Virus record (IMG/VR): IMGVR_UViG_3300007960_004287
Coordinates: 1 to 37,397 of that record
DNA length: 37,397 nucleotides
Direction: 5' to 3' (one strand)
DNA from: a virus
A program made the position numbers and the translations under genes. Every line of letters begins with the position of its first letter. The stretch's first letter is position 1. Below are positions 13,451 to 29,613 of this stretch, one piece after another. The notes beneath the pieces are model-generated. The model ran no database searches, had not been told where the DNA came from, and worked only from the letters and a program-made list of their open reading frames with translations.

Positions 13451-14230
13451 TTACCTGGAACTAAGAATTTGGGCGTTTCTCTGGAACATCTCTGGAGTCA
13501 TTTTGTATGACTGGTTCATGCCAGTGTTATTGGCTATTGCTAGTTTCTTTGGCACATGAGTCATCATGCACACCTTGGATAGCCTAAGCCACAGATCGTA
13601 ATCTTCAGTACATCCAATAAATTCTTTACTCGCTGGACCATGTAGCCTTGAATCAAAAAACTCCTTATTTGGCTGACATACCTTGCCAAGGGCATCCTTT
13701 TTTATTAGCGAATTGCTATGTACGATACATCTTTGCAGGAGAACAGTTCTATCATAAGACTGCTTAAACTCACGCTTTGTGTAATTAGGATAGACGTTAT
13801 CGTAGTCGCCATAAGCAACACCAATCTCTTTATACTCCATTAGCTTTTCAACTAGTGTTGATACCTTGTTCGGCATGTAAGCATCATCAGAGTCTAAGAT
13901 GCCAAATATATCCGCCCATTCCCACGCCTGCCAGATTGCCACATTTCTTCCAGTGCTAGCACCAGAGTTTACAATCCTAAAAGCGTAAAGATTATCCTTC
14001 CTTCGTTCCTCAATAGGCCCAGCATAGTATGACTCATTGAGAGTTCTAGTCTCAAATGGCTCAGTCATAGATGAAATAACTTCCCATGAATGATCGCTAG
14101 AACCATCATCAACAACATAAACTCTTAGTGGTCCATTGTAGTCCTGGTTTAGGACGCTCTTTATTGCGTCCCCTACATAATTACCATAGTTATAGTTCGT
14201 GCATACAATAGCAACATTAGGATTGCTCAT
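13451..14230 (-). CDS. GT2 family glycosyltransferase
   Basis: A 259-residue classic GT-A/GT2 enzyme: VAIVCTNYNYGNYVGDAIKS at the start, VYVVDDGSSDHSWEVI with the nucleotide-binding DD, NSGASTGRNVAIWQAW, FGILDSDDAYMPNKV with the DSDD metal site, and GCTEDYDLWLRLS with the catalytic ED. The start is placed at 14230, where TTGGAGAG lies upstream; the longer frame to 14401 runs across the preceding gene and has no ribosome site. It overlaps that gene by 14 bases. There is no membrane segment, unlike GT2 polysaccharide synthases. The acceptor is unknown. Confidence 0.9.
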   Translation of the reverse strand: MSNPNVAIVCTNYNYGNYVGDAIKSVLNQDYNGPLRVYVVDDGSSDHSWEVISSMTEPFETRTLNESYYAGPIEERRKDNLYAFRIVNSGASTGRNVAIWQAWEWADIFGILDSDDAYMPNKVSTLVEKLMEYKEIGVAYGDYDNVYPNYTKREFKQSYDRTVLLQRCIVHSNSLIKKDALGKVCQPNKEFFDSRLHGPASKEFIGCTEDYDLWLRLSKVCMMTHVPKKLAIANNTGMNQSYKMTPEMFQRNAQILSSR

Positions 14231-14999
14231 TAAATTCTCTCCAAGTGATATACGTTTCTGGATGACTCTTTGTGGCAACGTCCTTAACCTTGTCCAAGAA
14301 TAGTCTTGAGTCCATTTGCTCGTCTTGGAAGATCTTGGTCTTATTTCCATTAAGGAACTTAAACAAAGCTGTCTGGAATAGCAGTCCATTCCAGTTATCA
14401 TCGTATGGCTCTACGACAACCAGACGCTTCATGTCCACATTGACTCTCTTATGCATTGACTCTATAAGATCTTTTCTGATCTTTTCGCCAGAATGACACA
14501 CATACATCCAGCCATTCTTCGCATGTCTAAATGCTTCATCCATAAAGAATTCAGCATATTTTAGCTCAGAAACTATCTGGACTATATGGAAGTTGGTAAT
14601 ATCAAAGTCAAATGTTTTTCTAAGCAACTCATGAATTTCTTCATTAAATTCAACCTTAGATGTAATGACAATAACATATCTAGCAGTAAAAGTCTGTGAT
14701 TTTATGTCACTGATTGTTGACTTTAGATCATCCATGTCGCCATCAAAAATAACGACAAATCCAACTCGCGGCCTAACCTCATTCATTACTGCCGCTTCTA
14801 GGTCTAGAGATTCCTTAAGGTTGAGACGTTCAAACCATTGTTCTGGTCTAGAGGCATTACAGAATCTTTCTAGAACAAAATCACCATTTTCATCCAGGGT
14901 TGATCCAAGCTTCTCAGCCCTACCTAGCTTACATCCTGTTTGGACATTGCTTTCCTTTATACTAAACACGCAATCCTTACACTTATGCTCTACTATCAT
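14217..14999 (-). CDS. Glycosyltransferase-like protein with N-terminal cysteine motif
   Basis: A 260-residue protein. Residues 1-50 hold four cysteines, C7 and C10 (HKCKDCVF), C23 (TGCKLGRAEKLG) and C47 (RFCNASRPEQW), a pattern that could bind zinc or an iron-sulfur cluster. From about residue 78 there is a GT2-like strand order (GFVVIFDGDMDDLKSTISDI, RYVIVITSK, IVSELKYAEFFMDEAF, NGWMYVCHSGEKI), but the catalytic DxD and ED are not obvious, so it may be a non-catalytic partner. The ATG at 14999 is preferred over an in-frame GTG at 15017 because CAGGAG lies between them. It overlaps the previous stop as TAATG. Confidence 0.6.
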   Translation of the reverse strand: MIVEHKCKDCVFSIKESNVQTGCKLGRAEKLGSTLDENGDFVLERFCNASRPEQWFERLNLKESLDLEAAVMNEVRPRVGFVVIFDGDMDDLKSTISDIKSQTFTARYVIVITSKVEFNEEIHELLRKTFDFDITNFHIVQIVSELKYAEFFMDEAFRHAKNGWMYVCHSGEKIRKDLIESMHKRVNVDMKRLVVVEPYDDNWNGLLFQTALFKFLNGNKTKIFQDEQMDSRLFLDKVKDVATKSHPETYITWREFNEQS

Positions 15000-15421
15000 T
15001 AGCCTGTTCTCCTGCACTTAATAATAACCCTTGAAGTCGCCTGATCAAAATGCTTACTTTCTAACGTGATATTGCTTGGAAGAGACTCCAGTAGCTTTTC
15101 CATGGTAAGAAAGCATCGTCTTTTCTGGTTTGCGAAAACTATGGCATTAAGATCCTTTAGATCAATCTCTTGTGTGAACATCTTTCTAGAAAGAACTTCA
15201 ATATCTGCTTCAATAAATGTAATCTGACCCTTAAGCCTAATTTTGCTCACGATCTTTTTAATAGCGTCCGCGACTTCGTTTTCCTCAAAAGAAGAAACAA
15301 AATTGTCGCACACCATGATCCTAGCTTCTGAGTCAAGCACCGTACCATCTAGCAGAGCGATGCTGTTGACCCATTTGTATGTTCCGTCAAGCGGTTGAGT
15401 TTCCGATAGGTGAATCCTCAT
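14999..15421 (-). CDS. Small protein resembling a methyltransferase fragment
   Basis: A 140-residue protein. The middle and end (GQITFIEADIEVLSRKMF, LKDLNAIVFANQKRRCFLT, LESKHFDQATSRVIIKCRR) have the spacing of the later strands of a class I SAM methyltransferase, but motif I with its Gly-rich loop is not recognisable, and the protein is much shorter than a full enzyme. It may be a reduced or non-catalytic member. AAGGG precedes the ATG at 15421, which overlaps the GT4 stop (TAATG). Its position inside the glycan island suggests a role with the adjacent transferases; this is inferred only from context. Confidence 0.5.
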   Translation of the reverse strand: MRIHLSETQPLDGTYKWVNSIALLDGTVLDSEARIMVCDNFVSSFEENEVADAIKKIVSKIRLKGQITFIEADIEVLSRKMFTQEIDLKDLNAIVFANQKRRCFLTMEKLLESLPSNITLESKHFDQATSRVIIKCRRTG

Positions 15422-16452
15422 TATGCGATCCCTTTCTTGTCTTTAATAACCTTGAAAAATAGCTTGTTCCAATCGTCTATAAAACGATCTAGCCCGTAGT
15501 AATCAACAATAGTCTGTCTTGCCGCATCCCCAAGCTTTCTAGCAAGAATTGGGTTGTTCAGTAATAATTCGCAATGATTTCTTAGTTCCTGTGGATCATT
15601 TGAAATTAAGCCATTCTTTCCATTGACGATAATTTCTGGGATCATACAGTTTGCAGTTGATACAATAGCACATCCGCAAGCCATTGCTTCCAGCAATACT
15701 GTCGGTACTGGTGAGTGCAATGAGGTATTGTAGAATATGCTAAAGCTATTGTAAATCTGCCTGAGATGATCTGTGTCTCTTGCTGGCTCAGAAAATCCTG
15801 GCGACTTTCCAACCGGCATCACTGGAAGACCCTGTGTTGTCTGCTTCCATAGATTAAAACCACAACACCAATCCCTGTCGGGCCACCCATTTACTACTGA
15901 CAGTAGTGCGTTTCTACGCTCAATTCCCATTGGCTTAAAGTATTCAGTGTCAATGCCATGTTCTACAACTGAAGACTCTTCCCCAAAACCCCAAGCATCT
16001 CTATTATAGTAAGAGATAAAAGAGTCATGGTCCACCTTAATACTCTGCATTCCCTTCTTTTGAGCCTCAATGTCCATCCTAACATCTGGAAGAACATGCG
16101 TATGGCGAAGAATAGGAATTGCTAAACGATCAATTGTTGGTGAGTTTCGCTGCATTGCCAGAACGTCATGCATCGCCTTTAGTCTTCCGCAGGAAGTATG
16201 CGATAGCACTAGATCAAAATCAATGTGGTCTGGAATGTAATCCAATTGAGTGTAATTGCTTGGTATGGGAGCATAAGTCTCATCCCAGGTCTTCTGATTT
16301 GGAATGTTCATGGCAAAGAAGTTATGCCCAGTGCGGCATAGATTAGCCTCATATCGTTCGTGCGTAGTACACGTAAGGATATTGAGTGGTTCTTCCGCAT
16401 TGATTCTCTTCATGAGAGATCTTACGTTTCTCTGTGTCGCGTTGAATGTCAT
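15421..16452 (-). CDS. GT4 family glycosyltransferase
   Basis: A 343-residue GT-B enzyme. The N-terminal domain carries LNILTCTTHERYEANLCRTG and FDLVLSHTSCGRLKA. The linker has SSVVEHGIDTEYFKP, the conserved entry to the C-terminal domain. The donor-binding block is SPVPTVLLEAMACGCAIVST, where the first acidic residue of the usual EX7E is replaced by Ser (HSPVPTVLLE), leaving only the second Glu. That substitution is unusual and may alter donor binding. Length is normal. AAAGGA precedes the ATG at 16452, which overlaps the upstream stop (ATGA). It is soluble by sequence. Confidence 0.88.
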   Translation of the reverse strand: MTFNATQRNVRSLMKRINAEEPLNILTCTTHERYEANLCRTGHNFFAMNIPNQKTWDETYAPIPSNYTQLDYIPDHIDFDLVLSHTSCGRLKAMHDVLAMQRNSPTIDRLAIPILRHTHVLPDVRMDIEAQKKGMQSIKVDHDSFISYYNRDAWGFGEESSVVEHGIDTEYFKPMGIERRNALLSVVNGWPDRDWCCGFNLWKQTTQGLPVMPVGKSPGFSEPARDTDHLRQIYNSFSIFYNTSLHSPVPTVLLEAMACGCAIVSTANCMIPEIIVNGKNGLISNDPQELRNHCELLLNNPILARKLGDAARQTIVDYYGLDRFIDDWNKLFFKVIKDKKGIA

Positions 16453-17543
16453 TTAATTATTTCCTTTATCTTTTGTCCAATCTTTGCGTAATCGTATTCT
16501 TTAGCAGCGTCTTTTGCCTTCTTAGAAGCGTGTTCCATTGCTGATGTATTCCACTTCATGAATGCTGATCTGAGTGCGAACTGTAGTTGCCGTACATCAA
16601 TTTCCATCCAGTTACCCCTTGCGGTATCAAGATGTGGAAGTGTATCAACAGCACCAAAGCATGGAACCTCTCTTGATTCTACTGCTTGACCATAGCAAAA
16701 GTCATTCATGCCGGTTCCATTTGTATAAATGGTTGGTACACCTAAAGCCATTGCCTCTAGTGCTGGTATACAGAAAGATTCACCGCGACTAGGCATCACA
16801 AAGCACTGAGAAGCATACAAGATAGATTTATATTGATCTTCTTGAATCTTGCCGCAGATTATGATTTCTTTTCTGTAGTCTTTTCTAAGCTTTAGACCCT
16901 GCTTAATCTGAGAGCAATACTTTTCAACAACATCAGCAGTGGTTCTAGATGTTTTAATGACAAGATTTACTGGATCATTTGGGCCGAATTCAAGATGAAA
17001 AGCCTTAATAAGAGCGGCGGCATTCTTTCTTTCAATCCACTCTCCAGCAAAGACGAAGTTAAAGCAACCATTCATTTCCTTTATTTCTATGGTTGGCTTA
17101 AAATCTCTATACTTAGACATGTCAATAGAGCTTGGCACAACCATAATTGGCTTAGTTACACCACTTCTAGCTAGCTGCCCCTTGCTGCAAAAACTCATGG
17201 TCCATATTTCGTCCATTAGATTGCAGTGGGAATGCCAGCCTATGTCTCGTACTGGGTAAGATTCTGTTGTAACGAAACCAATGTTGTAGTAACTGGAATC
17301 GTAGGAAAAAAGATGGGGCAGCATATGCTGTACGCAAATATCGCATCCTTCTGAGGATTGAGCCTCTAGTTGCTTGATCCTCGCTGGATAATCAGTAGTC
17401 TGTGCTTCATAAGTGATAGCACGAGGAACCACATTTAATCCTGCGGCATCCATGGCGAGAATATTGCTTACAGCAGCATTGCCCCATCCTGTTCCATCAC
17501 GATAATTTCCAATGTATAGAATCTTCTTATCAGTTGCTGGCAT
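16449..17543 (-). CDS. GT4 family glycosyltransferase
   Basis: A 364-residue GT-B enzyme. It opens with KILYIGNYRDGTGWGNAAVS (Gly-rich acceptor loop), has SGVTKPIMVVPSSIDMSKYR as the domain linker, FNFVFAGEWIERKNAAALIK at the start of the donor domain, and PSRGESFCIPALEAMALGVP with a full EX7E (the two Glu in GESFCIPALE). This is a standard retaining GT4 layout, and the catalytic residues appear intact. CAAAGGATG lies before the ATG at 17543. It overlaps the large GT4 gene upstream by 14 bases. The sugar and acceptor are unknown. Confidence 0.9.
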   Translation of the reverse strand: MPATDKKILYIGNYRDGTGWGNAAVSNILAMDAAGLNVVPRAITYEAQTTDYPARIKQLEAQSSEGCDICVQHMLPHLFSYDSSYYNIGFVTTESYPVRDIGWHSHCNLMDEIWTMSFCSKGQLARSGVTKPIMVVPSSIDMSKYRDFKPTIEIKEMNGCFNFVFAGEWIERKNAAALIKAFHLEFGPNDPVNLVIKTSRTTADVVEKYCSQIKQGLKLRKDYRKEIIICGKIQEDQYKSILYASQCFVMPSRGESFCIPALEAMALGVPTIYTNGTGMNDFCYGQAVESREVPCFGAVDTLPHLDTARGNWMEIDVRQLQFALRSAFMKWNTSAMEHASKKAKDAAKEYDYAKIGQKIKEIIK

Positions 17544-19179
17544 TTTGATTCATCCTTTGCTGTCTCGCCTGTTCCCAAGTGTTGAGCTGAGTACGATAGT
17601 TCACACACTCGTTATAGGCTTCCTGTAGTGAAAATGGCACATACTTGTTATAGCTTTGTACATGAGATTCATTAAAGTAGAAATCTCCGTCCACATTCTC
17701 ACTCCGATATCCAAACGTGCAGTCCTTGACAACTCTCCTCCAAAAATAGTTGCCAATCCATTCTGGCTTATTTAAAACATTAGCAAAAAGAAAGTTCACT
17801 TGCTCTACGATTGTTTTTAGATTGCTTGGAATTCCTTCCGCTGGCCTGTGAATCTTAATGGGAGAATTCCAGGTTAATCTGTGGTCCTTTAGTTCTACGC
17901 CACGAATGTACTTTAGCCATGCTTCGGCTGTCTTATCCCATGAATAATGCGTTCTAGCTTTACGCATGACTTCTAGACCCATCTCACGAATCTCTTCGCT
18001 TGTCTTATTAGACAGTTCTAGTAGACATTGAACAAAAGCTTCGTTATCTGGTATGGCTCGCAAGCAACCAGTTTCGCATTCCTTCATAAATGACTTTGGC
18101 TTAATACCAATCCCACCAATGTTATCAATAACGGATTCCATTGCAGAATAGTATGTTGAGATAACAGGAAGCCCACAATAGGCAGCTTCTAGCTGTGGCA
18201 TCCCAAACCCTTCACTATTTGCATACTGAACATAAACATCAAATAGATTGTAGATGTCAGCAAGATCCTCTTCAGACATTGGGTTACTAAGGCCAACTAA
18301 CTGATTCTTAAACTCTCCACACTTCTTACAGTGCTGAACGGAGTCATTAAAAAAGTTTGTTGACACAGACTTACACTGCTTACATTTATAAGTGAATAGA
18401 ACCCTATTAGAAAGGCTATACTCATCAAGCAATGCTGGAACATCCCATCCAATATCTGGATAATAGGTGTGGCAATACAAGAAAGCGTTTGGCTTATCTG
18501 TCTTATCTAAGAAGTCCCTAAAAGACTTTAATAGATCTGGATATAGCTTACGCTTCTGGTTTCTCATTACAGTACCAATAATAAACGCAGCAGGATGAAT
18601 ACCATGCTCGTTTCTATGGTGCTTCTTATCTGGCACTGGCATGAAAATCTTGCTCGCCGCTGGTGGTGCTAGGTCCACAAACTTCATGTTGTCGGACTGC
18701 TCCATAAGAACGTCTCGTCCAAACTCAGAATAAGCAAACACTGCATCAGCATCTTCGTATGTAGCAATCCACTGATTGTTTTGTGGCTTTGCGTCAACCG
18801 TTGGCATGATTGCCCAGTTGTAGAAATCCCTAAATGGAGATCTCTGCTCAAATTCAATCATCCACCAGTCACGAATATCCATTACAACGTCTGGCTGGAA
18901 GTCTAGAAGAACTTCGTTAAAGTTAAAGTCACCAAACTGTGCCGTTGGATTCTTGTAACTACTATAGTTTGGATGGTCCTTCTCTGGCTTATTCCAGTAG
19001 ATCTTCCATGGGTATTGAGTAAGCTGTGGGTCTTTAGCACCAGCATAAATGCCCAACTGTGCTATTTCAAGGTCATCGTGCTGACATAGCCTCCCAAGAA
19101 CCTGGGTAGCGTAAACAGAATAACCAGTAGTATACCATGGTGCTTCACAAAGCATCAGGACTTTTCTTTTTCTATTCAT
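17530..19179 (-). CDS. Large GT4 glycosyltransferase with inserted zinc ribbon
   Basis: A 549-residue GT-B enzyme. The N-terminal loop is APWYTTGYSVYATQVLGR. The donor domain starts at IIGTVMRNQKRKLYPDLLKS (about 200-220). Residues 264-292 form an inserted ribbon with C266/C269 (CKQC) and C284/C287 (CKKC). The EX7E motif is E323 to E331 (SEGFGMPQLEAAYCGLPVI). About 120 residues follow the usual end, including an aromatic-rich stretch with no recognised domain. The start at 19179 is chosen over a GTG at 19194 because AAGGA lies just before the ATG. It overlaps the ssb stop by 8 bases, so this first gene of the glycan island is coupled directly to the replication genes. Confidence 0.88.
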   Translation of the reverse strand: MNRKRKVLMLCEAPWYTTGYSVYATQVLGRLCQHDDLEIAQLGIYAGAKDPQLTQYPWKIYWNKPEKDHPNYSSYKNPTAQFGDFNFNEVLLDFQPDVVMDIRDWWMIEFEQRSPFRDFYNWAIMPTVDAKPQNNQWIATYEDADAVFAYSEFGRDVLMEQSDNMKFVDLAPPAASKIFMPVPDKKHHRNEHGIHPAAFIIGTVMRNQKRKLYPDLLKSFRDFLDKTDKPNAFLYCHTYYPDIGWDVPALLDEYSLSNRVLFTYKCKQCKSVSTNFFNDSVQHCKKCGEFKNQLVGLSNPMSEEDLADIYNLFDVYVQYANSEGFGMPQLEAAYCGLPVISTYYSAMESVIDNIGGIGIKPKSFMKECETGCLRAIPDNEAFVQCLLELSNKTSEEIREMGLEVMRKARTHYSWDKTAEAWLKYIRGVELKDHRLTWNSPIKIHRPAEGIPSNLKTIVEQVNFLFANVLNKPEWIGNYFWRRVVKDCTFGYRSENVDGDFYFNESHVQSYNKYVPFSLQEAYNECVNYRTQLNTWEQARQQRMNQNASN

Positions 19180-19483
19180 TTGTTCCTTCTTCACCTGGAG
19201 GGAAAATCTTAAACGAAGTTACACGAAAAACGTATTCGCCTCTGTAGTTTCTAGCAATGGCACTGACGGCCATGTAGCCGCCTTCCTCTGCTTGCTTACA
19301 AATGGCTTTTGCGGCAGTATCCCACGCCTCAAATGTCAGTATGTTGTTTCTCTTCTTCGTAAGACCATCACGATCCTTACGGAATTCTTCTACGTTGAGC
19401 TTAAAATTTGTGACATGGGTATTATGTGTCACTTCAAGTTTTGGAATATCAACGAATCTACCCAAGAAATTACAGTTATTCAT
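19172..19483 (-). CDS. ssb: Single-stranded DNA-binding protein (SSB)
   Basis: A 103-residue OB-fold protein matching the bacterial SSB family core: NNCNFLGRFVDIPKLEVT (first strand and loop), VTNFKLNVEEFRK (second strand, as the usual FxLAxN), NILTFEAWDTAAKAICKQ (the F-x-x-x-x-W region), GGYMAVSAIARNY and YVFRVTSFKIF. It lacks the long acidic C-terminal tail of cellular SSB; the end is only GEEGTNE, so the usual tail-mediated partner recruitment may be reduced. It directly follows the C-terminal half of DnaE, 4 bases after its stop, which fits a role at the phage replication fork. Confidence 0.88.
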   Translation of the reverse strand: MNNCNFLGRFVDIPKLEVTHNTHVTNFKLNVEEFRKDRDGLTKKRNNILTFEAWDTAAKAICKQAEEGGYMAVSAIARNYRGEYVFRVTSFKIFPPGEEGTNE

Positions 19484-19487: not shown

Positions 19488-21029
19488 TCAAACTTGCCTC
19501 ACTTTGTTTGCAATAATTGATGTCTTGTCTCTCTTGGAGACTTCCCCATTTATCAATACGGTATTTCCCTCAACTAATAAATCACGGTACTCAGCATATG
19601 TTTCTGGGAAAACTGTTACTGAGTCAAGCATCCCGCTACTGTCTTCCGCACACACAAATGCCATGAGTTGCCCAGGAGTCTTGCCATTCTTTGTCTTATA
19701 CTCACGAACAGAGGACACCGTAACTACTATGTTTACTTTACCTGTTATCGTACCATTAGCGATGTCTTTACACATAGTAGCACTAAACGATTCATCAGCA
19801 GCATCAGCCTTATTGCATGTGAGTGAGCATCCCATGTAGGAAATTTCGTCAGTAGCCATAGTGGTAATACTGTCTTCAATACCATAAAATGGGTTCTTTA
19901 GTGCCTGATTGATATCAGCTACAGTCTTTAGACGGCGAGAATTAATCTTATGATTAACCATCATGTCGTCAATACACTGATAAAGAGTGTTAAAATTCTT
20001 GTAGCTTGTGGATATGTACTCCTGCTCTTTCTTTGTTAGCTGCTGCCAGCTATCAAATTCATACAGCATGGTTTTTCTTGGGGTTTTGTTATTCGGGCCA
20101 TTAAACGCACCAACAGAGATAAGTGCTATAACTGCTCTCTTGTTGATCTTGCCCTTATAAATCATATTGATAAGAACATCTAGCCATGTGTATTTTTCTA
20201 CGCCCTGCTTGATGGACTCAATCTTTTCACATTCAGCATCACCAACATTCTTTACATGCGAAATACCAAAGATGATCTTGCCATTTACCTCAGTAAAATC
20301 CTTATAGAGATAGTTAAGTCTTGGTGGATACACATCAATGTCGCAAGACTTAGCGTCAACGATCAATTCCTTCATCTCACGCTGAGAGTCTGGCTTACGA
20401 TACGCATGGTTAAGATAGGTAACATAGAACCTGGATGGACGATACAGCTTACAGTACGCTGACCAATAAGCATTAATAGCATATGACACAGCATGTGACT
20501 TATTAAATGCGTACCTATTGGACTTCTCAATCCATCCGAAAATCTCTTCAGCGATCTCTTTACTGACGATGCCCTTTTTCTCAGCACCCTTCATGAAGTC
20601 TTTCTTAACCTTTTCCATGAGGTCAGCTTTCTTCTTACCGATAGCCTTACGGAGAGCATCTGCTTCCTTCAGATCAAAACCGGCAAGCTTCTGAGCAATC
20701 ATCATAGACTGCTCCTGATACACAAGAACCCCATAGGTTTCAGATAGTATCTCCTCTAGGGATTCATGAGGATAGGTAACAGCGTCTTTACCGGCCTTGC
20801 GGTCGCAGTAATGTTGCGTCATGGACTTGCCATCAACCTTAGCCATAAGCGTTCCAGGTCTAATAACACTAATAAGTGCTGCTAGCTCTGAAATGCTTTT
20901 TGGCTGAAGCTGCTTTGCCCAATGACGACCAAGATTAGACTCTAGCTGAAATATGCCCTTCGTGCGACCAGAACAAATAAAATTCCAAACATCTGGATCG
21001 TGAAGGTCATTAATATCAAAATCACTCAA
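19488..21029 (-). CDS. dnaE: DNA polymerase III alpha subunit, C-terminal half (fingers to OB)
   Basis: About 513 residues that align by motif with DnaE after the palm: GIFQLES (about 25-31), ISVIRPGTLMAK, YPHESLEEILSETYGVLVYQ, EQSMMIAQ, ADALRKAIGKKKADLMEK, RYAFNKSHAVSYAINAYWSA (fingers), then helix-hairpin-helix-type sequence around IVDAKSCDIDVYPPRLNYLY and an OB-fold at the end (VSSVREYKTKNGKTPGQLMA, LDSVTVFPETYAEYRDLL). No catalytic Asp lies here; all three are in the gene at 21928-23496. I see no clear QxxLF-type clamp-binding motif. I place the start at TTG 21029, which has GGAG 9 bases upstream and overlaps the exonuclease stop (TTGAGTGA); a TTG at 21062 with an AAGG site is the alternative and would add 11 residues. 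No ATG start is available. Confidence 0.9.
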   Translation of the reverse strand: MSDFDINDLHDPDVWNFICSGRTKGIFQLESNLGRHWAKQLQPKSISELAALISVIRPGTLMAKVDGKSMTQHYCDRKAGKDAVTYPHESLEEILSETYGVLVYQEQSMMIAQKLAGFDLKEADALRKAIGKKKADLMEKVKKDFMKGAEKKGIVSKEIAEEIFGWIEKSNRYAFNKSHAVSYAINAYWSAYCKLYRPSRFYVTYLNHAYRKPDSQREMKELIVDAKSCDIDVYPPRLNYLYKDFTEVNGKIIFGISHVKNVGDAECEKIESIKQGVEKYTWLDVLINMIYKGKINKRAVIALISVGAFNGPNNKTPRKTMLYEFDSWQQLTKKEQEYISTSYKNFNTLYQCIDDMMVNHKINSRRLKTVADINQALKNPFYGIEDSITTMATDEISYMGCSLTCNKADAADESFSATMCKDIANGTITGKVNIVVTVSSVREYKTKNGKTPGQLMAFVCAEDSSGMLDSVTVFPETYAEYRDLLVEGNTVLINGEVSKRDKTSIIANKVRQV

Positions 21030-21711
21030 TGTACATTTCTCCGTTTGCAAATGCCTTCTCAAACTTTACCTTCTTCAATAGCCCACGCTGAAGCTTCAGG
21101 AACTTAATAAGGATATTGGCAGTATCCTTAACGTCTTGTAGAGCATCATGAGCGTTATCCTTGGATAATCCAAAATATTCACGCAAGTAATCCATGTTAT
21201 AGGACTTAACATCCTGGTTGTTTTCAAACCAACAATAGATGTGATCCATAAGATCTATCTTAAAAATTGGATTGAATAGCTTCTGCTCGTCACGATCAGC
21301 ATTGTATGGACCGTATTCCTTACACATGCGACGAACAATCGGCATGTCATAGCCAATAATATTAAACCCAGCAGCAATTGGTGCAGTGAAGGAAGTATTC
21401 TTCCAGTTGTACTGGTTTACAAACTCAGCAAACTTCTTCCACACCACCTTTGGAGGTGGAGCTTTAGCAAGATCCTTACGGTTCTTTCTAGTAATCTCCA
21501 GTGCCTTTTCCTCAAGCGGTGCTACACCAGCCTCAATAGCCTTATCGTCATCAATAATAGGACGAATCTCACTATTGAATGTGCCTCCAGGCTGAAGGGT
21601 TAGCTTTCTTCCATGGATGGCAATTGCGGCAATCTGTGTAGGCTGTGCCGTAAGCGGATTCGCACCCCCAGTCTCAAAGTCAAACACGATTATATCACGC
21701 ATATTAGCCAT
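21022..21711 (-). CDS. DnaQ-like DEDDh 3'-5' exonuclease
   Basis: A 229-residue exonuclease of the DnaQ/RNase T superfamily. Exo I is D11 and E13 (IIVFDFETGG), Exo II has D122 within AGFNIIGYDMPIVRRM, and Exo III has H188 and D193 (NAHDALQDVKDTANIL), giving a complete DEDDh set. It removes 3' nucleotides, and as a partner of DnaE it would proofread. It is encoded exactly between the two halves of the split polymerase, overlapping the upstream small gene by 8 bases and the downstream half by at least 8. The PHP domain of this polymerase has lost its metal ligands, so this is the likely proofreader. AAAGGA precedes the ATG at 21711. There is no clear clamp-binding motif. Confidence 0.9.
   Translation of the reverse strand: MANMRDIIVFDFETGGANPLTAQPTQIAAIAIHGRKLTLQPGGTFNSEIRPIIDDDKAIEAGVAPLEEKALEITRKNRKDLAKAPPPKVVWKKFAEFVNQYNWKNTSFTAPIAAGFNIIGYDMPIVRRMCKEYGPYNADRDEQKLFNPIFKIDLMDHIYCWFENNQDVKSYNMDYLREYFGLSKDNAHDALQDVKDTANILIKFLKLQRGLLKKVKFEKAFANGEMYIE
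21039..21042 (-). promoter_or_regulatory. Ribosome binding site for the TTG start of the DnaE C-half
   Basis: GGAG on the minus strand, 9 bases before TTG 21029 and inside the last codons of the exonuclease gene. It supports coupling of the polymerase C-half to exonuclease translation. A competing AAGG before TTG 21062 prevents certainty. Confidence 0.5.
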
Positions 21712-21931
21712 GAATCTTATCCTTTACTAGGGAAGCGAACTTGTTAACAGCCTCATCAATGTTGGGGAACAGATCATAAACACGATGCTTGTCTGACCAC
21801 ACCTGATACTTTGCTGATCTCTTAACGACACCATTCTTTAGGACGGCATCTAGGTTACAAATGGATACACCGTCTAGGTCAACGGCCCCACCAGCATATA
21901 CAACGCTCTTAATATCTTGCTTTGTTGTCAT
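21704..21931 (-). CDS. Small protein of unknown function inside the split dnaE locus
   Basis: A 75-residue protein (TTKQDIKSVVYAGGAVDLDG at its start). The sequence suggests a small alpha/beta domain: two short strands, a basic middle (GVVKRSAKYQVWSDKHRVYD) and a C-terminal amphipathic helix (IDEAVNKFASLVKDKI). I recognise no family. It overlaps the N-terminal polymerase half as ATGA and the exonuclease gene by 8 bases, so all three are translated together. A role as a bridge or accessory for the split polymerase is possible but rests only on position. Confidence 0.75.
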   Translation of the reverse strand: MTTKQDIKSVVYAGGAVDLDGVSICNLDAVLKNGVVKRSAKYQVWSDKHRVYDLFPNIDEAVNKFASLVKDKIHG

Positions 21932-23496
21932 TCCATAATCTCCATAACTTTTGAGAGTAGATCAATACCGAGAATATCTAGTTTTACCAAACCGAGTTTT
22001 TCTAGATCACCCATTTCAAACGCCGCTATAGGTGTATTGTTCTTATCCATAATCATAGGGCAAGTATCTTTTAGCACAGTTGGAGACACGATAACACCGG
22101 CAGCGTGTTTTCCATGTGACTTATTAGTTCCTTCTATATTAATAGCCTGCTTGAATATGTCAGCAAGTGGACCCTCAAGCTCACCATCCTTAGTTTTCCT
22201 ACACCACCCTTCAAGCGGTTCAGGATCATTCTCCAATGCCCAATTAATGATACTCTTATCATCGGATACTTCCAACTGGTCAGAAATCTCTGCCTCGTTG
22301 GGTATGCTCTTGGTTATCTCATTCATCTCTGCAAATGACACAGCCTCATTGATTCTAAGGACTTCCTTCAATGCTGCTCGTCCTTGGAGTCTTCCGAATG
22401 TAACCATCTGCGAAACGTTTTCATGCCCGTATTTCTCTTTAATGTAGTCGATAATTTCGTCACGATGCTCCGCTGGAACGTCAACGTCAATATCAGGCAG
22501 AGAAATATTATCCTTGCTATTTCGCCCTTCATTATAGAACCTCTCAAAGATTAGACCATACTCAATTGGGTCCACTTCTGTGATGCCAATTAGGTACGAA
22601 ACTAGACAACCAGCAGCAGATCCTCTACCGGGACCGGCAAGCCAATCACGACGCTTTACTTCATTTACAATATCTTGAACGATCAAAAAGTAACCAGATA
22701 GATCAGCCTTAAGGATAACATCTAGTTCATGCTTAACACGATCAGCATATATTGTTTTTTGTTCTTCGTCATCAACCTTGCCACTGTTAGCAATACGCTC
22801 CTTCCATCCAACACGGCACAAATGCCTTAGATAGTCTGGCTGAGACATGTTCTTTGGGCATTCAAATGCTGGAAGAGTTGGATTGTGTGCCACCTCAAAG
22901 TCTTCACACTGATTAAGTATTGTATCGTAAATCTTATTGTCCTTTGGTGGCTTTAGATAGTACTCGTCAGACAAAAAGAATTCCTTGTGGTCAAACTCTT
23001 CATCCTTTCTCATCTTTGCCTTAATCTTTGGAATGGTTGTCTTCATTCCAGAGCATAGCAGAACCCTATGGCATTCAGCATCAGACTGATTGACATAGTA
23101 ACATGCTTCCTTTTGATAATCGTAGCGGACGCAGTTAGATCCGAATAGTTTAGCAAATCCATCGCTCGTTGTCAAGCAAAGCAGATTGCCAGCCTCGGCA
23201 ACCTCTCTAAGCCTGTCATAGCTAGAATCAGACACGTATTTAATTAAATCAAACCATCCAGCCTTGTTCTTACAAAATAAAATAAACGTACCAAAGTCGC
23301 ATCCGATGATTGGCTTAATCTCATGCTTTCTACATGCAGCATGGAAGTCAACAGCACCAGACATGCTGCCAATGTCGGCAAGAAGAACGGCATCGTAGCC
23401 TAGTTCTTTTGCCTTCTTTGCCAACTGATCACACTTTGAAAAACCAAGCAATAGACTAAAATGAGTCTTACAATTTAGTGCGATTTTACTCGACAT
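21928..23496 (-). CDS. dnaE: DNA polymerase III alpha subunit, N-terminal half (PHP, palm, thumb)
   Basis: A 522-residue protein covering the first half of DnaE. The PHP domain is at about 5-200. The palm begins near AGPGRGSAAGCLVSYLIGIT (287-306). The metal-binding aspartates are D337 and D339 in LPDIDVDVPAEHRDEIIDYI, with the third at D507 in LGLVKLDILGIDLL; HGKHAAGVIVSPTV (461-474) is also present. The protein stops 15 residues after D507, where single-chain DnaE continues into the fingers. The usual PHP signature HxHSxYSLLDG reads NCKTHFSLLLG and TDHGNM reads ADIGSM, so its metal-dependent activity is probably lost. The stop overlaps the next start (ATGA). The start at 23496 overlaps the exostosin-like gene by 11 bases. 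Confidence 0.93.
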   Translation of the reverse strand: MSSKIALNCKTHFSLLLGFSKCDQLAKKAKELGYDAVLLADIGSMSGAVDFHAACRKHEIKPIIGCDFGTFILFCKNKAGWFDLIKYVSDSSYDRLREVAEAGNLLCLTTSDGFAKLFGSNCVRYDYQKEACYYVNQSDAECHRVLLCSGMKTTIPKIKAKMRKDEEFDHKEFFLSDEYYLKPPKDNKIYDTILNQCEDFEVAHNPTLPAFECPKNMSQPDYLRHLCRVGWKERIANSGKVDDEEQKTIYADRVKHELDVILKADLSGYFLIVQDIVNEVKRRDWLAGPGRGSAAGCLVSYLIGITEVDPIEYGLIFERFYNEGRNSKDNISLPDIDVDVPAEHRDEIIDYIKEKYGHENVSQMVTFGRLQGRAALKEVLRINEAVSFAEMNEITKSIPNEAEISDQLEVSDDKSIINWALENDPEPLEGWCRKTKDGELEGPLADIFKQAINIEGTNKSHGKHAAGVIVSPTVLKDTCPMIMDKNNTPIAAFEMGDLEKLGLVKLDILGIDLLSKVMEIME

Positions 23497-24391
23497 GACT
23501 TCTAAATTCCTTTCGGGTTCTATCCATATCCTGCTTCACTTTCTCTACACCAATACTATCACGCTGTAACGTGATATTCGCAAGCTGCCGTGCCAGTGCT
23601 TTTGGTTCAAGAATTGTCAAATTGTATTCAACAATCTTCCTGACAATTTCTGGCATCATTTTTCCATTCAGGGTATTCAGGGTGACTGATAGGATCTTGT
23701 CCATCACTGCCCATGAACACTTAGAGAATGGTGCTTCACGATAATACCACAATGGCGGCAATCTTTCAACTACTGGTAATGCCCCCATTTTTATCGCTTC
23801 AAAAAATCTGAACGTTTCTGGACTGCTGGCCCCCGGTGGGCATAGAACAACCTTAGAATCGTTAAGAAGGCCGATGTAATCGTCATGACTTAACCCCTTT
23901 CCAAATCCATCAGTAATTTCAACATAGTAATTGAACTTGTCGCCAGTTTCCTTCATGAGTTTGTCAAGCCCACGCTTGAAAAAATCACGGGTTCCAGTGT
24001 CGGGAATCTGACCAATAAATGTGAAGTCATATTTTCTATCAGGTATTGGCTGCGGGTCTGGCATGTTGTCACAGTTGACAAAAGGTCCAAGCGGCAATGG
24101 ATGTGTTATACAATTTAGGTACGGTAGTTCAAACTTATCAAGCCAATGATAATTCTGAAAAATGAAATGTACTTCCTTTACGAAGAAGTCATGGGCTATG
24201 ATATGCATCTCACGAGATGTTGAGAAAACTATGTTTAGCTTATCATCATTAAAGTTATCCCAACCTCCCTGATCGTACTTAATGACAACACGATATTGCT
24301 CTGGTAGCATGTCTGCTAAATAACCAGCAGTATCTAACAGAAACTTATTACCCTGATCAAATTCCTTATGCCAATCAATTAATTCTGCCAT
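23486..24391 (-). CDS. Exostosin-like glycosyltransferase among replication genes
   Basis: A 301-residue protein of the exostosin-like group, with KYDFTFIGQIPDTGTRDFFK opening the second domain and SKVVLCPPGASSPETFRFFE followed by AIKMGALPVV as the donor site. It is closest by eye to the protein at 5415-6230, which has almost the same block (SKVALVPRGSASRETFRFFE). It lies between a RecB-like nuclease and the N-terminal polymerase half, far from the main glycan island, and is coupled to both by short overlaps. It may serve the island from a distance, or represent an insertion by duplication. It is soluble by sequence. Confidence 0.85.
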   Translation of the reverse strand: MAELIDWHKEFDQGNKFLLDTAGYLADMLPEQYRVVIKYDQGGWDNFNDDKLNIVFSTSREMHIIAHDFFVKEVHFIFQNYHWLDKFELPYLNCITHPLPLGPFVNCDNMPDPQPIPDRKYDFTFIGQIPDTGTRDFFKRGLDKLMKETGDKFNYYVEITDGFGKGLSHDDYIGLLNDSKVVLCPPGASSPETFRFFEAIKMGALPVVERLPPLWYYREAPFSKCSWAVMDKILSVTLNTLNGKMMPEIVRKIVEYNLTILEPKALARQLANITLQRDSIGVEKVKQDMDRTRKEFRSHVE

Positions 24392-25413
24392 TAGCCTGGA
24401 GCCTCATAATAATTGGAATCAAACCCGTCACGCTTTAGTTTCTCGGTAGCCTCATCATAGCCAAAAGCCCTTAAATGCTCTTCGGCATACTCACACATGG
24501 AGGTATTAGTTCCAGGCCACTTTGTCTTATAGAAATGGCATAGCTTAGTACACTTAAAGCTCTTGCGATCTCTTGAGCATGGTTGCGGAAAATCATTTCT
24601 GGTAATTGACTTCCATCGCTTCTCTAGCATTCCTAGAAACTTTTGCTGGTCATCCTTATCAAAGCACATAGAGAAAGGTCCACCATCTCGTATGAAGAAT
24701 ATTGACATGATAGCCTGATGGTAGTCTGGAAACAACTTCGTAATAGCGTAGTTGTATAGTAGTAGCTGTGGGTCTTCACATAGTTTTTCATATGTCTTTT
24801 CCTCTCCAGTAGCCCAATTTAAACGGCGACCAGTCTTCCAGTCAATTACCTCAATAACACCATCGTCTATTTCTGTTACAAAGTCAATAGTACCCTTAAT
24901 AGCAAGTCGCCCTTCTACGTCATTACCTTTATTATCCTTATAGGTAAACGTAGCCCAAGGCTCATCAATAGGAATGTCAAAATGTGGTTCAGCGGCCACA
25001 ATCTTTCTATTCCTTGGATCAAACTGACCATCATTATATTCAATTGCTATCTGTACAAGCTCATCACAAAACTTATAATCAGCATTGGTGTATTTATGAG
25101 TGCAATTAGAAGTGTAGTGTTCGTATGATTGCTTCAGCATCTTGTCTACGAACTTTTTAGTATACAAAGCTTTTGGAGTACACTTAACTTCTCCAATAGC
25201 GTCATCCACTATGGTCAGACTCTTAGCGTCTGGGTTATCCTGATGCTCTTTCTTAAGAGTGGCAAGAACCTCCATTACCTTATGGACAATAGTTCCAAGC
25301 TGTGCCTTCTTGCCAGATGGGGACTGATAGCCCAGCACATAGGTAAAATAGTATTGTAGTTGACAATACTCATACCCATTGTATGACGACGATCTAATGT
25401 AAGGACATAACAT
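24391..25413 (-). CDS. PD-(D/E)XK nuclease of the RecB/Cas4 type
   Basis: A 340-residue nuclease. The opening YIRSSSYNGYEYCQLQYYFT and LGTIVHKVMEVL (H44) match the PDDEXK_1 family. The catalytic core is D177 (KGTIDFVTEI), D191 and K193 (IEVIDWKTGRR), with a QLLLYNYAI helix carrying the motif-IV Gln. C17 plus the C-terminal cluster C279, C288, C292 and C307 suggest an iron-sulfur cluster like that in AddB and Cas4, though the exact ligands need alignment. Such proteins resect DNA ends. Next to RecA-type recombination genes and the polymerase, it probably makes single-stranded substrates for recombination or degrades host DNA. AAGGGG precedes the ATG. Confidence 0.87.
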   Translation of the reverse strand: MLCPYIRSSSYNGYEYCQLQYYFTYVLGYQSPSGKKAQLGTIVHKVMEVLATLKKEHQDNPDAKSLTIVDDAIGEVKCTPKALYTKKFVDKMLKQSYEHYTSNCTHKYTNADYKFCDELVQIAIEYNDGQFDPRNRKIVAAEPHFDIPIDEPWATFTYKDNKGNDVEGRLAIKGTIDFVTEIDDGVIEVIDWKTGRRLNWATGEEKTYEKLCEDPQLLLYNYAITKLFPDYHQAIMSIFFIRDGGPFSMCFDKDDQQKFLGMLEKRWKSITRNDFPQPCSRDRKSFKCTKLCHFYKTKWPGTNTSMCEYAEEHLRAFGYDEATEKLKRDGFDSNYYEAPG

Positions 25414-25416
25414 GAA

Positions 25417-26241
25417 TCACCCCTTCTTAAAAGTATGAATACCAGAAGTATTAGGTTCAGTTCGTGGCTGAATCTTACTTGGCACAACAGCTCCACCCAA
25501 CCAGCCCCAACTCTCAAGAAGGCGAACCAGTTCTACGTTTACATCATGAATACCGAGATTAGCATTATCTATAACAGCGTCCATTCCATCATAGTTTGCC
25601 AATTGATTTTCGCTATGATGTGAATCTTCGTATGGGTTTCTTGTTAGATAAATAACCTTTCCACCAGCGTCCTGAATTGCCTCAACCTCATTTGGAAATC
25701 TTAGGTCGTCAATAACCGCAAGCAATGGCTGTTCTGCCTGTATGTCATCCACAAGACGCCGCTGCCAAATGTCTGGATAAATCTTACGGCACAGATCGCT
25801 ACCAAAAAATTGTAGAAACTCTCTATTCGTCATGCGTCCAGTTTTGTCTGTGACCCCTGGCATGTCTTCCCATCTATACTTTGTCTTCAAGTCCTTCTGG
25901 GCATTGTTTCCGTATACCTCAGAACGATTCAACTTAAACATATGGATACAGAATTCCTTTAGGGGGCGAGCCATAGAATAGCTCTTTACAAAAGGCCACA
26001 TGTTGTATGCTGCCCATTCGGCAAATTCCATATCGCTACGGTTTACATCTAGCATACCTTTTGACTCATACTCTTCGCCGTCCTCTGACTTAATAACAGA
26101 TTCCACCATTAGCTTTCCATCTTCAAGAATGCTAAAGTTGTTAATAACACTATGGCATCTCATCTGATAGCCATGAAGAAAATTACTTGCTGTGGTCTTG
26201 CCAGCCTGCTTTGTGCCAGCAAATCCTATAATCTTTGTCAT
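25417..26241 (-). CDS. Deoxynucleoside monophosphate kinase (phage type)
   Basis: A 274-residue P-loop kinase: FAGTKQAGKTTASNFL (Walker A, G9 to T16), RPLKEFCIHMFKLNRSEVYG and GRMTNREFLQFFGSDLCRKI (lid and dNMP-side regions seen in phage dNMP kinases), AVIDDLRFPNEVEAIQDAGG (Walker B and sugar side), and VIYLTRNP followed by DSHHSENQ. The family phosphorylates dGMP, dTMP and related monophosphates to diphosphates. It works with the dUTPase and ribonucleotide reductase at the right end to feed the polymerase. TAGGAG precedes the ATG at 26241, which overlaps the primase stop (ATGA). Confidence 0.88.
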   Translation of the reverse strand: MTKIIGFAGTKQAGKTTASNFLHGYQMRCHSVINNFSILEDGKLMVESVIKSEDGEEYESKGMLDVNRSDMEFAEWAAYNMWPFVKSYSMARPLKEFCIHMFKLNRSEVYGNNAQKDLKTKYRWEDMPGVTDKTGRMTNREFLQFFGSDLCRKIYPDIWQRRLVDDIQAEQPLLAVIDDLRFPNEVEAIQDAGGKVIYLTRNPYEDSHHSENQLANYDGMDAVIDNANLGIHDVNVELVRLLESWGWLGGAVVPSKIQPRTEPNTSGIHTFKKG

Positions 26242-27266
26242 TGAGTTACTCCTAGTAATTGAGGACCAAGTTCTTCTTTAATTTGTTCTATTGAGAGATC
26301 GCCAACGTCTTTGGTGGAAATCGTTGGTCTGTAGTAGTTGAATCTTCTGCCACCCTTCTTAACTATCTGTTCATATGCTTTTTCGCCAGCCTCATCTGAA
26401 TCTGTCAGCACAACAACATTCATAACTCCACATTTTTCAAGCAGGATAAGCTGATCGTCAGTAAGACTACAACCAAAGATTCCAACAGTTTGAGTATAAC
26501 CGGACTCATGCATTCTCCAAACGTCTCCCTGTCCTTCTACCAGGATAACGCTGCCGGTTTCTAGTATCCTGTTATAGGCACGATGTATGCCGTATAACAC
26601 ACACTTTTTGAACCCCTTGCTGTACAGCCATTTTGGTTGCATTCTATCGTTTTCTGCTCTACCGGCACATCCAATAAACATAAAGTTCTGATCATAAATT
26701 GGTGCTACAGACCTTCCGCTCATTGGCTTGCCAGCCTCAAACGAGTGACCAACATCAAAATCATCCAAAGTCTCTGGCTTAAAACCACGCTTGATAAAAT
26801 ACTCAGATGGTATTTTAAGCTTGCTACGAACCTGATCTCTGGTTATTGAAGACTCTGGTATTTCCTGAACACGCTGAAACTCTTCTAGTGGATTAAAGTG
26901 TTTTGCTTTAACGCCTTCTAGTTCAGTCTCACCGCCGATAAAATCTAGAGTAAACTGGTATGCTTCATTAAGGTTGACTTTTCTACCATACTTAGATTCC
27001 ATGGTTCCACGAATGAAACCTAAAAGATTATTGGAATACTCTTCCTCGCAATGCTTAGTCCAGCACTGCCAGTTACCCTTAATGGTATTGCCATCACTAA
27101 AGATACAACACGCTTCTGTGTTGTCTCCACCATGGATGGGACACGCAAAAGCGAATCTATTGGGATGTTCAATAAAGTCAACTTGGAAATGATCTAATAG
27201 CCTGCCAATATCCTCGGCAGCGGCATTAGACATCTTCAATATCTGTTCCCGGCTCAATGTCGCCAT
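26238..27266 (-). CDS. dnaG: DnaG-like primase
   Basis: A 342-residue primase, shorter than cellular DnaG. The zinc-binding domain has C42 and H45 (FACPIHGGDN) with C68 and C73 (GNWQCWTKHC), as in CHC2 primases. The TOPRIM domain has E244 (VILVEGQGDVW) and D289/D291 (VVVLTDSDEAGEKAY). A C-terminal helicase-interaction domain is largely absent, so contact with the DnaB-like helicase may differ. It makes RNA primers at the fork. The start at 27266 overlaps the helicase gene by 41 bases and has AAGGA about 11 bases upstream; an ATG at 27233, which overlaps by only 8 bases, is a fair alternative and would remove 11 residues ahead of the zinc domain. Confidence 0.9.
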   Translation of the reverse strand: MATLSREQILKMSNAAAEDIGRLLDHFQVDFIEHPNRFAFACPIHGGDNTEACCIFSDGNTIKGNWQCWTKHCEEEYSNNLLGFIRGTMESKYGRKVNLNEAYQFTLDFIGGETELEGVKAKHFNPLEEFQRVQEIPESSITRDQVRSKLKIPSEYFIKRGFKPETLDDFDVGHSFEAGKPMSGRSVAPIYDQNFMFIGCAGRAENDRMQPKWLYSKGFKKCVLYGIHRAYNRILETGSVILVEGQGDVWRMHESGYTQTVGIFGCSLTDDQLILLEKCGVMNVVVLTDSDEAGEKAYEQIVKKGGRRFNYYRPTISTKDVGDLSIEQIKEELGPQLLGVTQ

Positions 27267-28704
27267 CTATTTCAAATCCTTCTTCACGTTGTTGATTGGT
27301 ATTATGAATTTGGTTCCTAGTTCTACTTTCTTCAATTCTACCAATGTTACCAAACATCTTCACACTAATGTAGTCGCCATCATCAAGACCGCCACCATGC
27401 CTAGCAACCACAGGAACCAATTTACGGTTCCCGTGTACTACTCCGTCTGTAGCAATCTCTTCTTCAGACTTTAACTTAAAAATAGTAAAGCTAGTACAAA
27501 GCCAAATGAGTCTGTCTGAACCAGACACAACATCAGTTGATTCCTTTGTGATACCATCACGATTCAACTGTACAAAGCTCAAACATGGCACATCATACTT
27601 TACGCAAAAGTTATGTAGCTTAGTAATCTGGAATCCAAGCACCTGATATTCTTGCATGGAAGAACTAATACTCTCGCCACCCATTAGCTTTAGATAGTCA
27701 TAGACTATTAAGCAATCGTTTGTCTTGCCATTCTCGTCAAATCCAACGTGCTGATAAATCCACTTACGTGCGATTGACAAAATGTTATCAAACGGTTGAC
27801 CGGCAATACTAATGTAGTGGTATGGCATTTTCTCAAGCTCTTCAGCCGCAGCCTGAACCTTTTCTAGTTCAGTTGGGTTTTCGCCAAACTGACCAGTAGA
27901 AATTCTGCGAACATCAACACCACTTAGACACGCAAGAATACGATTCTGGTGATCCTGCCTACCCATTTCTGTATCAAGCATTAATACTGGAATACCTAGC
28001 TTGCCAGCAACGTGCATAGCAACAGCATCTCCAAACATGGACTTACCAACCTTTGGACGAGCAGCAACAAGATCAACAGACTTTCTTCTAAGCCCGCCAC
28101 CAATAGCATTATCGTACTGTGGAAATCCGCTTGGAATACCAGCATAATCGCTTGGGTTTGAGATAAGGTACTCTACATAGTCCTTTACATCTGCACCAAT
28201 AATCTCAGTCTTTTTGTCGGATGATTCATAGATTGATCCAGTGGCATCCAGCAATGGTTCTTCAATTTTTGATACAATATCAAGCACATCCTCATCACCA
28301 GAAATGTCTCCTAGCTGCTGAGAGCAGGCGGCTAATGTTTTCTGTAGTTGCCGTGCTAGTTTTAGCTTGGCAATCTTGGCGGCATGGGAGGCGACATTTT
28401 CTTTATGGATAGGGAAATTAAAAAGAGATCGGATAAAGCCAATCTCTTCTTTGTTGTTAAGCTGATCCGAAATTCCAAGATCGCTTGCTGCCGAGAGAAT
28501 AGACGTTAAGTCTACCTTAGAACCTTCCATGACAGACTTATGAATGCAGGAAAATAATACCTGATTCATGGTATCATTGAAGCAGTCTTCGTCTACGAAG
28601 TCTACCTCTAGATAGGCATCAAGACCGTACTGGCATAGCCCAGCCAGAACGGCTCTCTCTGCCGCAGGATTAAATAGTTGCTTTTGTGTTGTTTTCTTTT
28701 TCAT
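27226..28704 (-). CDS. dnaB: DnaB-like replicative helicase
   Basis: A 492-residue RecA-fold helicase. The N-terminal DnaB domain opens with NPAAERAVLAGLCQ and runs to about residue 110. The motor domain follows with YAGIPSGFPQYDNAIGGGLR, Walker A ARPKVGKS (about 215-222), LMLDTEMGRQDHQNRILACL, Walker B LIVYDYLKLM, and a VPCLSFVQLNRDG strand with the conserved Gln. The C-terminal tail is acidic. It unwinds DNA at the fork as a hexamer and should work with the primase next to it. The start at 28704 is chosen over 28728 because AAGGT lies 6 bases upstream and the ATG overlaps the previous stop (ATGA). Confidence 0.93.
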   Translation of the reverse strand: MKKKTTQKQLFNPAAERAVLAGLCQYGLDAYLEVDFVDEDCFNDTMNQVLFSCIHKSVMEGSKVDLTSILSAASDLGISDQLNNKEEIGFIRSLFNFPIHKENVASHAAKIAKLKLARQLQKTLAACSQQLGDISGDEDVLDIVSKIEEPLLDATGSIYESSDKKTEIIGADVKDYVEYLISNPSDYAGIPSGFPQYDNAIGGGLRRKSVDLVAARPKVGKSMFGDAVAMHVAGKLGIPVLMLDTEMGRQDHQNRILACLSGVDVRRISTGQFGENPTELEKVQAAAEELEKMPYHYISIAGQPFDNILSIARKWIYQHVGFDENGKTNDCLIVYDYLKLMGGESISSSMQEYQVLGFQITKLHNFCVKYDVPCLSFVQLNRDGITKESTDVVSGSDRLIWLCTSFTIFKLKSEEEIATDGVVHGNRKLVPVVARHGGGLDDGDYISVKMFGNIGRIEESRTRNQIHNTNQQREEGFEIDGDIEPGTDIEDV

Positions 28705-29150
28705 CGTGACCTTATACATCTGTCGCAAATGTAATTATCACGGGCATGTGCTGGGTGAACCTCATAAGACTGGCTACACTTACCACATACCTGCGATACC
28801 TTCTTGAATGGCTTTCTCTTTCTTTCAGATGGAGAAACAGACGGAGTTGCTATATCCCTATCCGATCCATCGTCAACAAACTGTATTTCTCTCTTAACCT
28901 GATTTACAGGCACGGCAGAAGAACCCTTAGCCTCATCACGCACCATTGTGAAATCATCATTGACGTTTCTGGGAGAAACTGCCCGTGGTCTTTCTACAAC
29001 TGGTTCTGGTGCTTTAGGCTTAGTGTCTGGCTCTCTCTTTGGAGTGCTAGACTCAAGACTATCCACCATGTCCTTCGCCATCATTATAAGCTCTGGATCG
29101 CCACTGTCAAGTGCCATTCTCATCAATTTTAGTGCTTCTTTAAGTGCCAT
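28701..29150 (-). CDS. Zinc-ribbon protein upstream of dnaB, function unknown
   Basis: A 149-residue protein in three parts: an N-terminal helix pair (residues 1-35), a long Pro/Lys/Glu-rich region likely to be disordered (about 36-115), and a C-terminal ribbon with CGKC and CDRC separated by about 17 residues (VHPAHARDNYIC). The family is not recognised. The layout of an anchoring helix, a flexible linker and a nucleic-acid-type zinc knob, with direct coupling to dnaB (ATGA), would suit a helicase loader or recruiting factor, but that is context only. CAGGAG precedes the ATG at 29150. Confidence 0.8.
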   Translation of the reverse strand: MALKEALKLMRMALDSGDPELIMMAKDMVDSLESSTPKREPDTKPKAPEPVVERPRAVSPRNVNDDFTMVRDEAKGSSAVPVNQVKREIQFVDDGSDRDIATPSVSPSERKRKPFKKVSQVCGKCSQSYEVHPAHARDNYICDRCIRSR

Positions 29151-29151: not shown

Positions 29152-29613
29152 TTATTTTCTCCTGGCTAAATTGAGTAGGATATCTGATAGTTTTTTAATG
29201 TTGTCCACTTTGGCCTGAAGGGTTTCCACGCGAGCCTGAGCGTTATTCTTGATCTTCAGTATTTCAGAAGCCAAGGGGTTTTCCCTAACACAGTTATAGT
29301 ATTTCTCCTGCCATTTGGCATACTGCCCTCCATACTGACTTATTTTGTTGGCAATAATGTACCAGATACTTTCATCTGCCCATTGCAGCTTTACCTTTTC
29401 TGCTGAAAGCATGGACTCAAGATGATTAGAATACGAATACAAATCGTATGCGTACTTATGGCATTGTGCGTATGTTAGAGAGTCTAACCTAGATCCATCA
29501 AGATTTAACGCTTCCTCTATGTCGTCGCTTATCTTAACTTCTCTTATGCCAATAGCCTTTGACCATCTATCAATGTTCTCTACAAATTCTTTAAATCTTT
29601 CTTCTCCACTCAT
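29152..29613 (-). CDS. Helical protein near recA, possible recombination mediator
   Basis: A 153-residue, almost all-helical protein. The C-terminal half (about residues 90-150, SQYGGQYAKWQEKYYNCVRE, then NNAQARVETLQAKVDNIKKL) reads as a coiled coil. Small helical proteins next to RecA/UvsX in phages are often UvsY-type mediators that load the recombinase on SSB-coated DNA. Size and context fit, but I cannot show homology. The ATG at 29613 is preferred to one at 29625 because the GAGG ribosome site lies between them. It overlaps the upstream nuclease gene by 23 bases. Confidence 0.72.
   Translation of the reverse strand: MSGEERFKEFVENIDRWSKAIGIREVKISDDIEEALNLDGSRLDSLTYAQCHKYAYDLYSYSNHLESMLSAEKVKLQWADESIWYIIANKISQYGGQYAKWQEKYYNCVRENPLASEILKIKNNAQARVETLQAKVDNIKKLSDILLNLARRK

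Follow-up and report, generated by a model that had tools for sequence, protein, structure and literature searches.

The DNA analysed here (the window) is the 37.4-kb viral record IMGVR_UViG_3300007960_004287 of IMG/VR, taken at its full length of 37,397 nucleotides. Positions 19488-23496 of its minus strand encode a split C-family DNA polymerase (DnaE, the alpha subunit of Pol III). The polymerase is not a single polypeptide; it consists of two open reading frames (ORFs), the N half and the C half, with two genes between them, X75 and that of a DnaQ-like exonuclease (Table 1). The overlaps of these frames are 4 nt between the N half and X75 (ATGA), 8 nt between X75 and the exonuclease (ATGGCTAA), and 8 nt between the exonuclease and the C half (TTGAGTGA). 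The mechanical ORF of the C half is 19488-21062(-); whereas the TTG codon at 21029, preceded by GGAG and located at the same position as nearly all starts of the relatives, is the likelier start.

Table 1. Features of the window, with the split polymerase locus and its surroundings.
Feature	Position	Strand	Remarks
N half of DnaE: PHP remnant, palm, thumb (D337, D339, D507)	21928..23496	-	522 aa; Pfam, E. coli alignment, relatives' alignment
X75, conserved protein without assigned function, between N half and exonuclease	21704..21931	-	75 aa
DnaQ-like DEDDh exonuclease, presumed proofreading subunit	21022..21711	-	229 aa; Pfam RNase_T, PHROG 192
C half of DnaE: fingers, tandem helix-hairpin-helix (HhH), OB fold	19488..21029	-	513 aa, TTG start
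Single-stranded DNA-binding protein (SSB)-like, directly downstream of C half	19172..19483	-	Pfam SSB 9.2e-5 (under curated cut-off), PHROG 44 4.2e-6
Upstream replication genes: PD-(D/E)XK nuclease, deoxynucleoside monophosphate (dNMP) kinase, Toprim primase, DnaB-like helicase	24391..28728	-	conserved neighbourhood
Run of glycosyltransferase, epimerase and methyltransferase genes	4013-19194		suggests a large sugar-modification block
HNH/homing-endonuclease-like gene	29591-29995		adjoins the UvsX-like recombinase gene
UvsX-like recombinase gene	29992-31074		

The N half matched the Pfam families PHP (1.1e-17) and DNA_pol3_alpha (2.6e-73; domain complete, 1-260), and the C half matched DNA_pol3_finger (1.1e-46) and HHH_6 (5e-11), together with a sub-threshold OB match. 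The fingers, HhH and OB fold are all present, but in a separate chain. Alignment with E. coli Pol III alpha (2hnh) showed that D337, D339 and D507 of the N half correspond to D401, D403 and D555, and these residues are invariant across the alignment of the relatives' N halves; the stop codon of the N half follows 15 residues past D507. The N half could be aligned to the E. coli enzyme until about residue 563, and the C half to residues 591-893 plus a weak OB region (2hnh, 5fku). The break thus affects no more than about 27 residues of the linker joining palm and fingers, and the conserved elements are all retained. The N half ends right after the helix LLSKVMEI, and the C half begins about 24 residues ahead of GIFQLES, with a similar arrangement in the relatives. 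These results confirm the preliminary description of this DNA, which had proposed a DnaE split at the palm/fingers boundary, the three catalytic aspartates in the first half, and a 75-residue protein and an exonuclease in the gap, coupled by short overlaps. The DnaE pieces of cyanobacteria are ligated by a split intein near FNKSH; whereas the break in the window is located well ahead of FNKSH and has no intein, a difference that the same description had pointed out correctly.

The C half alone gave an AlphaFold2 (AF2) model with a predicted local distance difference test (pLDDT) score of 90.2. The best Foldseek match of this model was DnaE1 of M. tuberculosis (7pu7, E 6.5e-22, TMq 0.71), and 2hpi was also matched. 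The model and its matches to Pol III alpha structures suggest that the C half could plausibly fold as a free-standing subunit. The PHP domain is shortened in the subgroup of the window and has lost metal-ligand positions that are retained by members of the L231 type (L-numbers such as L060 and L413 are the labels of the compared loci). The deep split members (L231, L350, L396, L405, L409, L410, L412, L414, L415, L417, L418 and L431) have a C half extended at its N terminus; the extension, which bears a conserved CGC motif, is absent from the window's subgroup.

The exonuclease matched Pfam RNase_T (1.2e-13) and PHROG 192, 'DNA polymerase exonuclease subunit' (2.1e-28), and its DEDDh residues (D11, E13, D122, H188 and D193) are invariant in the alignment of the relatives. 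It is presumed to be an epsilon-like proofreading subunit of the split polymerase. X75 had no match in Pfam, PHROG or NCBIfam; its alignment comprises 26 rows, and its AF2 model (pLDDT 83.7) had no fold match in the PDB. X75 was found in 48 of the 59 representatives (41 by BLAST and 7 by hidden Markov model). It is missing from one subclade (L081, L161 and L163), where the N half, exonuclease and C half overlap directly. Another ORF, judged uracil-DNA-glycosylase-like from its sequence, lies between X75 and the exonuclease in L231 (L231:4613-5224).

Relatives were collected by scans of IMG/VR, which gave several hundred loci. The N and C ORFs are separate at every locus where both halves are readable, with the exception of one lineage. 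The exonuclease lies between the halves at 285 loci, representing about 167 distinct viral sequences; the raw count of distinct sequences was 169 and included L413 and L430, which were subtracted because they are fused at the palm/fingers break but intein-broken elsewhere. The N-(X75)-exonuclease-C order and the same break were found in relatives with an identity to the window as low as ~45%. This recurrence indicates that the arrangement is not due to chance, and it excludes an assembly rearrangement. Among the 59 representatives, the N halves always retain PDxD, plus a KxDxL motif near the end, and the C halves retain the fingers motifs except for two cut or intein-broken cases; the motifs retained in the halves of the relatives are PDxD, KxDxL, YQEQ, GKKK and FNKSH. 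The median dN/dS was 0.030 for the N half, 0.024 for the C half, 0.005 for the exonuclease and 0.12 for X75; both halves are under strong purifying selection. Shine-Dalgarno-like 4-mers precede the exonuclease in 58/59 and the C half in 30/59 cases (background 15%), which fits separate initiation.

The replication neighbourhood (helicase, primase, dNMP kinase, PDDEXK nuclease, polymerase and SSB) is also kept in the relatives. No close cultured relative was found in INPHARED, where the best polymerase matches reached at most ~36% identity over most of the query, and the exonuclease and X75 had no match. A bacterial or prophage relative was sought in bacterial genome contigs and rejected, as they gave only ordinary single-chain DnaE with ≤34% identity. 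The hosts of the viral clade appear to be bacteria.

Searches for other polymerases covered related records of up to 148 kb, all of which are possibly incomplete. One C-family match (PF07733) per record was found in 20 long related records. No polymerase of family A or B (PF00136 for B) was found in 18 records, the window included, and the DnaN middle domain of the clamp was not found in the same 18 records. Among 49 C halves searched for clamp motifs, 19 had a Q-x-M-L-Y-like string in the segment that directly follows the HhH. A search for the T4-type capsid protein gp23 gave no match, and its control was equally silent.

The intein models had no match in the halves of the window; whereas TIGR01445 does match L413 (3e-8). 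The Rfam search revealed no intron or other family in the window. An intron or intein at the palm/fingers break was ruled out by this lack of an intein model and of an Rfam family, and the preliminary description had rightly reported that intein ends are missing. Split inteins are present in the DnaE of some relatives, at FNK/SH in L060 and L413, and at GRG/SAAG in L430. L060 has both types of break, with intein ends only at FNK/SH and none at the palm/fingers break. A free-standing endonuclease-like ORF lies between the intein halves of L060 (L060:10909-13772, 309 aa) and of L413 (L413:10390-11640, 306 aa), and this fractured-gene arrangement at FNK/SH is common to one split (L060) and one fused (L413) relative. 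L430 has a 301-aa endonuclease-like ORF with a split intein in the palm of a DnaE of the fused lineage (L430:2700-3870).

Both chains are intact, conserved together and without intein ends, the break lies in the palm/fingers linker, and the gene of an intact DEDDh exonuclease is consistently placed between them. The preliminary description had suggested a working two-part enzyme. This view is strengthened by the intactness of the halves, the purifying selection, their constant co-occurrence and the lack of another polymerase in the 18 records; the locus very probably encodes an obligate two-chain C-family replicase with an in-operon proofreader. It is hardly credible that a recent insertion or an assembly error broke the gene and left non-functional fragments. 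A homing endonuclease-like gene does occur in the window (29591-29995), and additional genes lie between the parts in some relatives; however, the break is shared by all of the ~167 distinct sequences, dN/dS is about 0.03, the motifs are retained and no other polymerase was found. Post-translational ligation of the halves by trans-splicing, through a split intein as in the cyanobacterial DnaE or otherwise, is also very improbable. True split inteins exist in the same polymerase of the relatives, but the halves of the window contain neither intein motifs nor matches to intein models, there is no room for intein halves at the break, and L060 shows a readable intein break whereas its palm/fingers break has no intein. 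The split enzyme might instead be a specialised repair or translesion polymerase, with the host Pol III copying the phage genome, and the lack of a DnaN match in the 18 records and the fact that a conserved clamp-binding pentapeptide could not be established would fit such a role. This is unlikely, since the polymerase belongs to a full replication block with DnaB-like helicase, primase, SSB, exonuclease and dNMP kinase, and the split enzyme is the only polymerase found.

The direction of evolution is less certain. Seven relatives (L416, L421, L422, L427, L432, L413 and L430) have one uninterrupted frame across the palm/fingers break. Their gene order is (X75-)exonuclease-DnaE-SSB, that is, the same parts with the N half shifted next to the C half; for example, the exonuclease lies just upstream in L413, L416 and L421, and X75 also in L413 and L416. 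The linker stretch has 42-44 residues in L413, L416 and L421, compared with 42 for the chains of the window placed end to end. The first tree, which included bacterial and other phage DnaE, recovered the split rows as one group with a support of 100 in the Shimodaira-Hasegawa-like approximate likelihood ratio test (SH-aLRT); the fused relatives emerged from a wider sample after this tree. Trees of N+C, of N only and of C only then nested these relatives within the clade of split rows, beside the window's subclade. A tree of the helicase, primase, PDDEXK nuclease and exonuclease, reconstructed without an outgroup, likewise placed the fused rows as akin to that subclade. The split rows formed one clade in 0% of 200 bootstrap trees, and the approximately unbiased (AU) test against such a clade gave p = 0.047 for N+C, but 0.155 for N alone and 0.341 for C alone; thus a re-fusion is favoured, not proven.

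Uninterrupted genes in related phages were regarded by the preliminary description as a sign against a working split enzyme. Such genes do exist, but they are nested in the split clade and look like re-fusions; they are no evidence of broken halves. The split probably predates the diversification of the phage clade, with one lineage later rejoining N and C. Overall, it seems fairly likely that the ancestor of this diverse clade already possessed a two-chain replicative Pol III alpha, that the exonuclease gene has stayed between its halves, and that one lineage re-fused them. Less probable is an ancestral single chain, with the fused clade as sister to all split phages and one split that arose as N and X75-exonuclease swapped their order. 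The AU test does not reject this history on N or C alone, and a distant outgroup may misplace the root; whereas the nested position in the N, C and N+C trees, the bootstrap and N+C AU results, and the kinship indicated by the neighbour genes, albeit in a tree without an outgroup, speak against it. Some points weigh against the interpretation preferred here: a second polymerase may lie outside the searched and possibly incomplete records, replication of the phage genome by a host enzyme is conceivable in principle, and the direction of re-fusion depends on a root from a distant outgroup.

In the proposed two-chain replicase, the first chain (PHP-palm-thumb) would supply all three catalytic aspartates, and the second (fingers-HhH-OB) the deoxynucleoside triphosphate- and template-binding surface. 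The N half, X75, exonuclease and C half are most likely translated off one polycistronic message via coupled re-initiation, and the N and C chains probably assemble non-covalently, side by side, to form a complete Pol III alpha-like active site. The exonuclease would act as an epsilon-like proofreader in the polymerase core, and X75 may be an accessory or assembly subunit. The two-chain version with a proofreader gene in the gap is a test case for fingers/palm assembly in trans, and it also bears on the stoichiometric coupling of proofreading and on whether split or fusion is the ancestral state. If re-fusion did occur, the rejoined lineage would amount to a split-and-rejoin experiment performed by nature on a replicative polymerase. 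Either half alone is liable to be misread as a truncated dnaE during annotation, and marker trees based on dnaE would miss these viruses.

To our knowledge, the bacterial C-family replicases are single chains, the intein splits of cyanobacteria being rejoined. The bacterial DnaE1 (E. coli, T. aquaticus and M. tuberculosis) has the same domain order and catalytic residues as the window, but in a single chain, and the exonuclease epsilon of E. coli is encoded elsewhere than alpha. The papers searched, all open-access texts, revealed no description of this palm/fingers break site, of an exonuclease nested within it or of fused relatives; split C-family polymerases as such are already known from jumbo phages and, among deposited genomes, from Cbastvirus. 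The cyanobacterial dnaE is encoded in two pieces (PMC3919608). The PolB of Methanothermobacter thermautotrophicus consists of two polypeptides and was isolated and characterised as a split B-type enzyme (Kelman et al. 1999, as cited in PMC7776575); it is a two-chain polymerase of a replicative family as here, but of an unrelated family and cellular. In the OM43 phages MEP401 and MEP402, and in most members of their group, PolA is encoded by two ORFs that flank a small one, for which the authors suggest an intron (PMC10580990); whereas this is a family A polymerase, with no exonuclease gene in its gap. Only the PHP part is separate in Bacillus phage BpsS-140. In Lysinibacillus phage LC76P1 (L344), DnaE occupies two ORFs separated by a third one of 281 aa, which may reflect the insertion of an intron or homing endonuclease.

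The Cbastvirus DnaE (Tenacibaculum phage Larrie, L101; Cellulophaga phage phiST, L340) has adjacent N and C genes as in the window; however, its break interrupts the palm ahead of the PDxD aspartates (between residues 325 and 330 of the window's N half), no exonuclease is found between, and it forms a separate long branch in the tree. The ORF ends in Larrie are faintly intein-like, and the frames of phiST overlap by 8 nt. The group 2.2 jumbo phages also encode a C-family polymerase as two separate proteins; this split 'minimal' Pol III alpha is presumed to come together as a single enzyme (Iyer et al. 2021, PMC7824862). The preliminary description, sound as to the break itself, had included neither this precedent nor the breadth of the clade and the fused relatives. 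The jumbo-phage version is a minimal core without other Pol III domains, with its genes far apart and a family B polymerase alongside (PMC7824862); whereas no PF00136 accompanies the split enzyme in the 18 records that include the window, and the window's polymerase extends from the PHP remnant to the OB fold in adjoining genes around the exonuclease.

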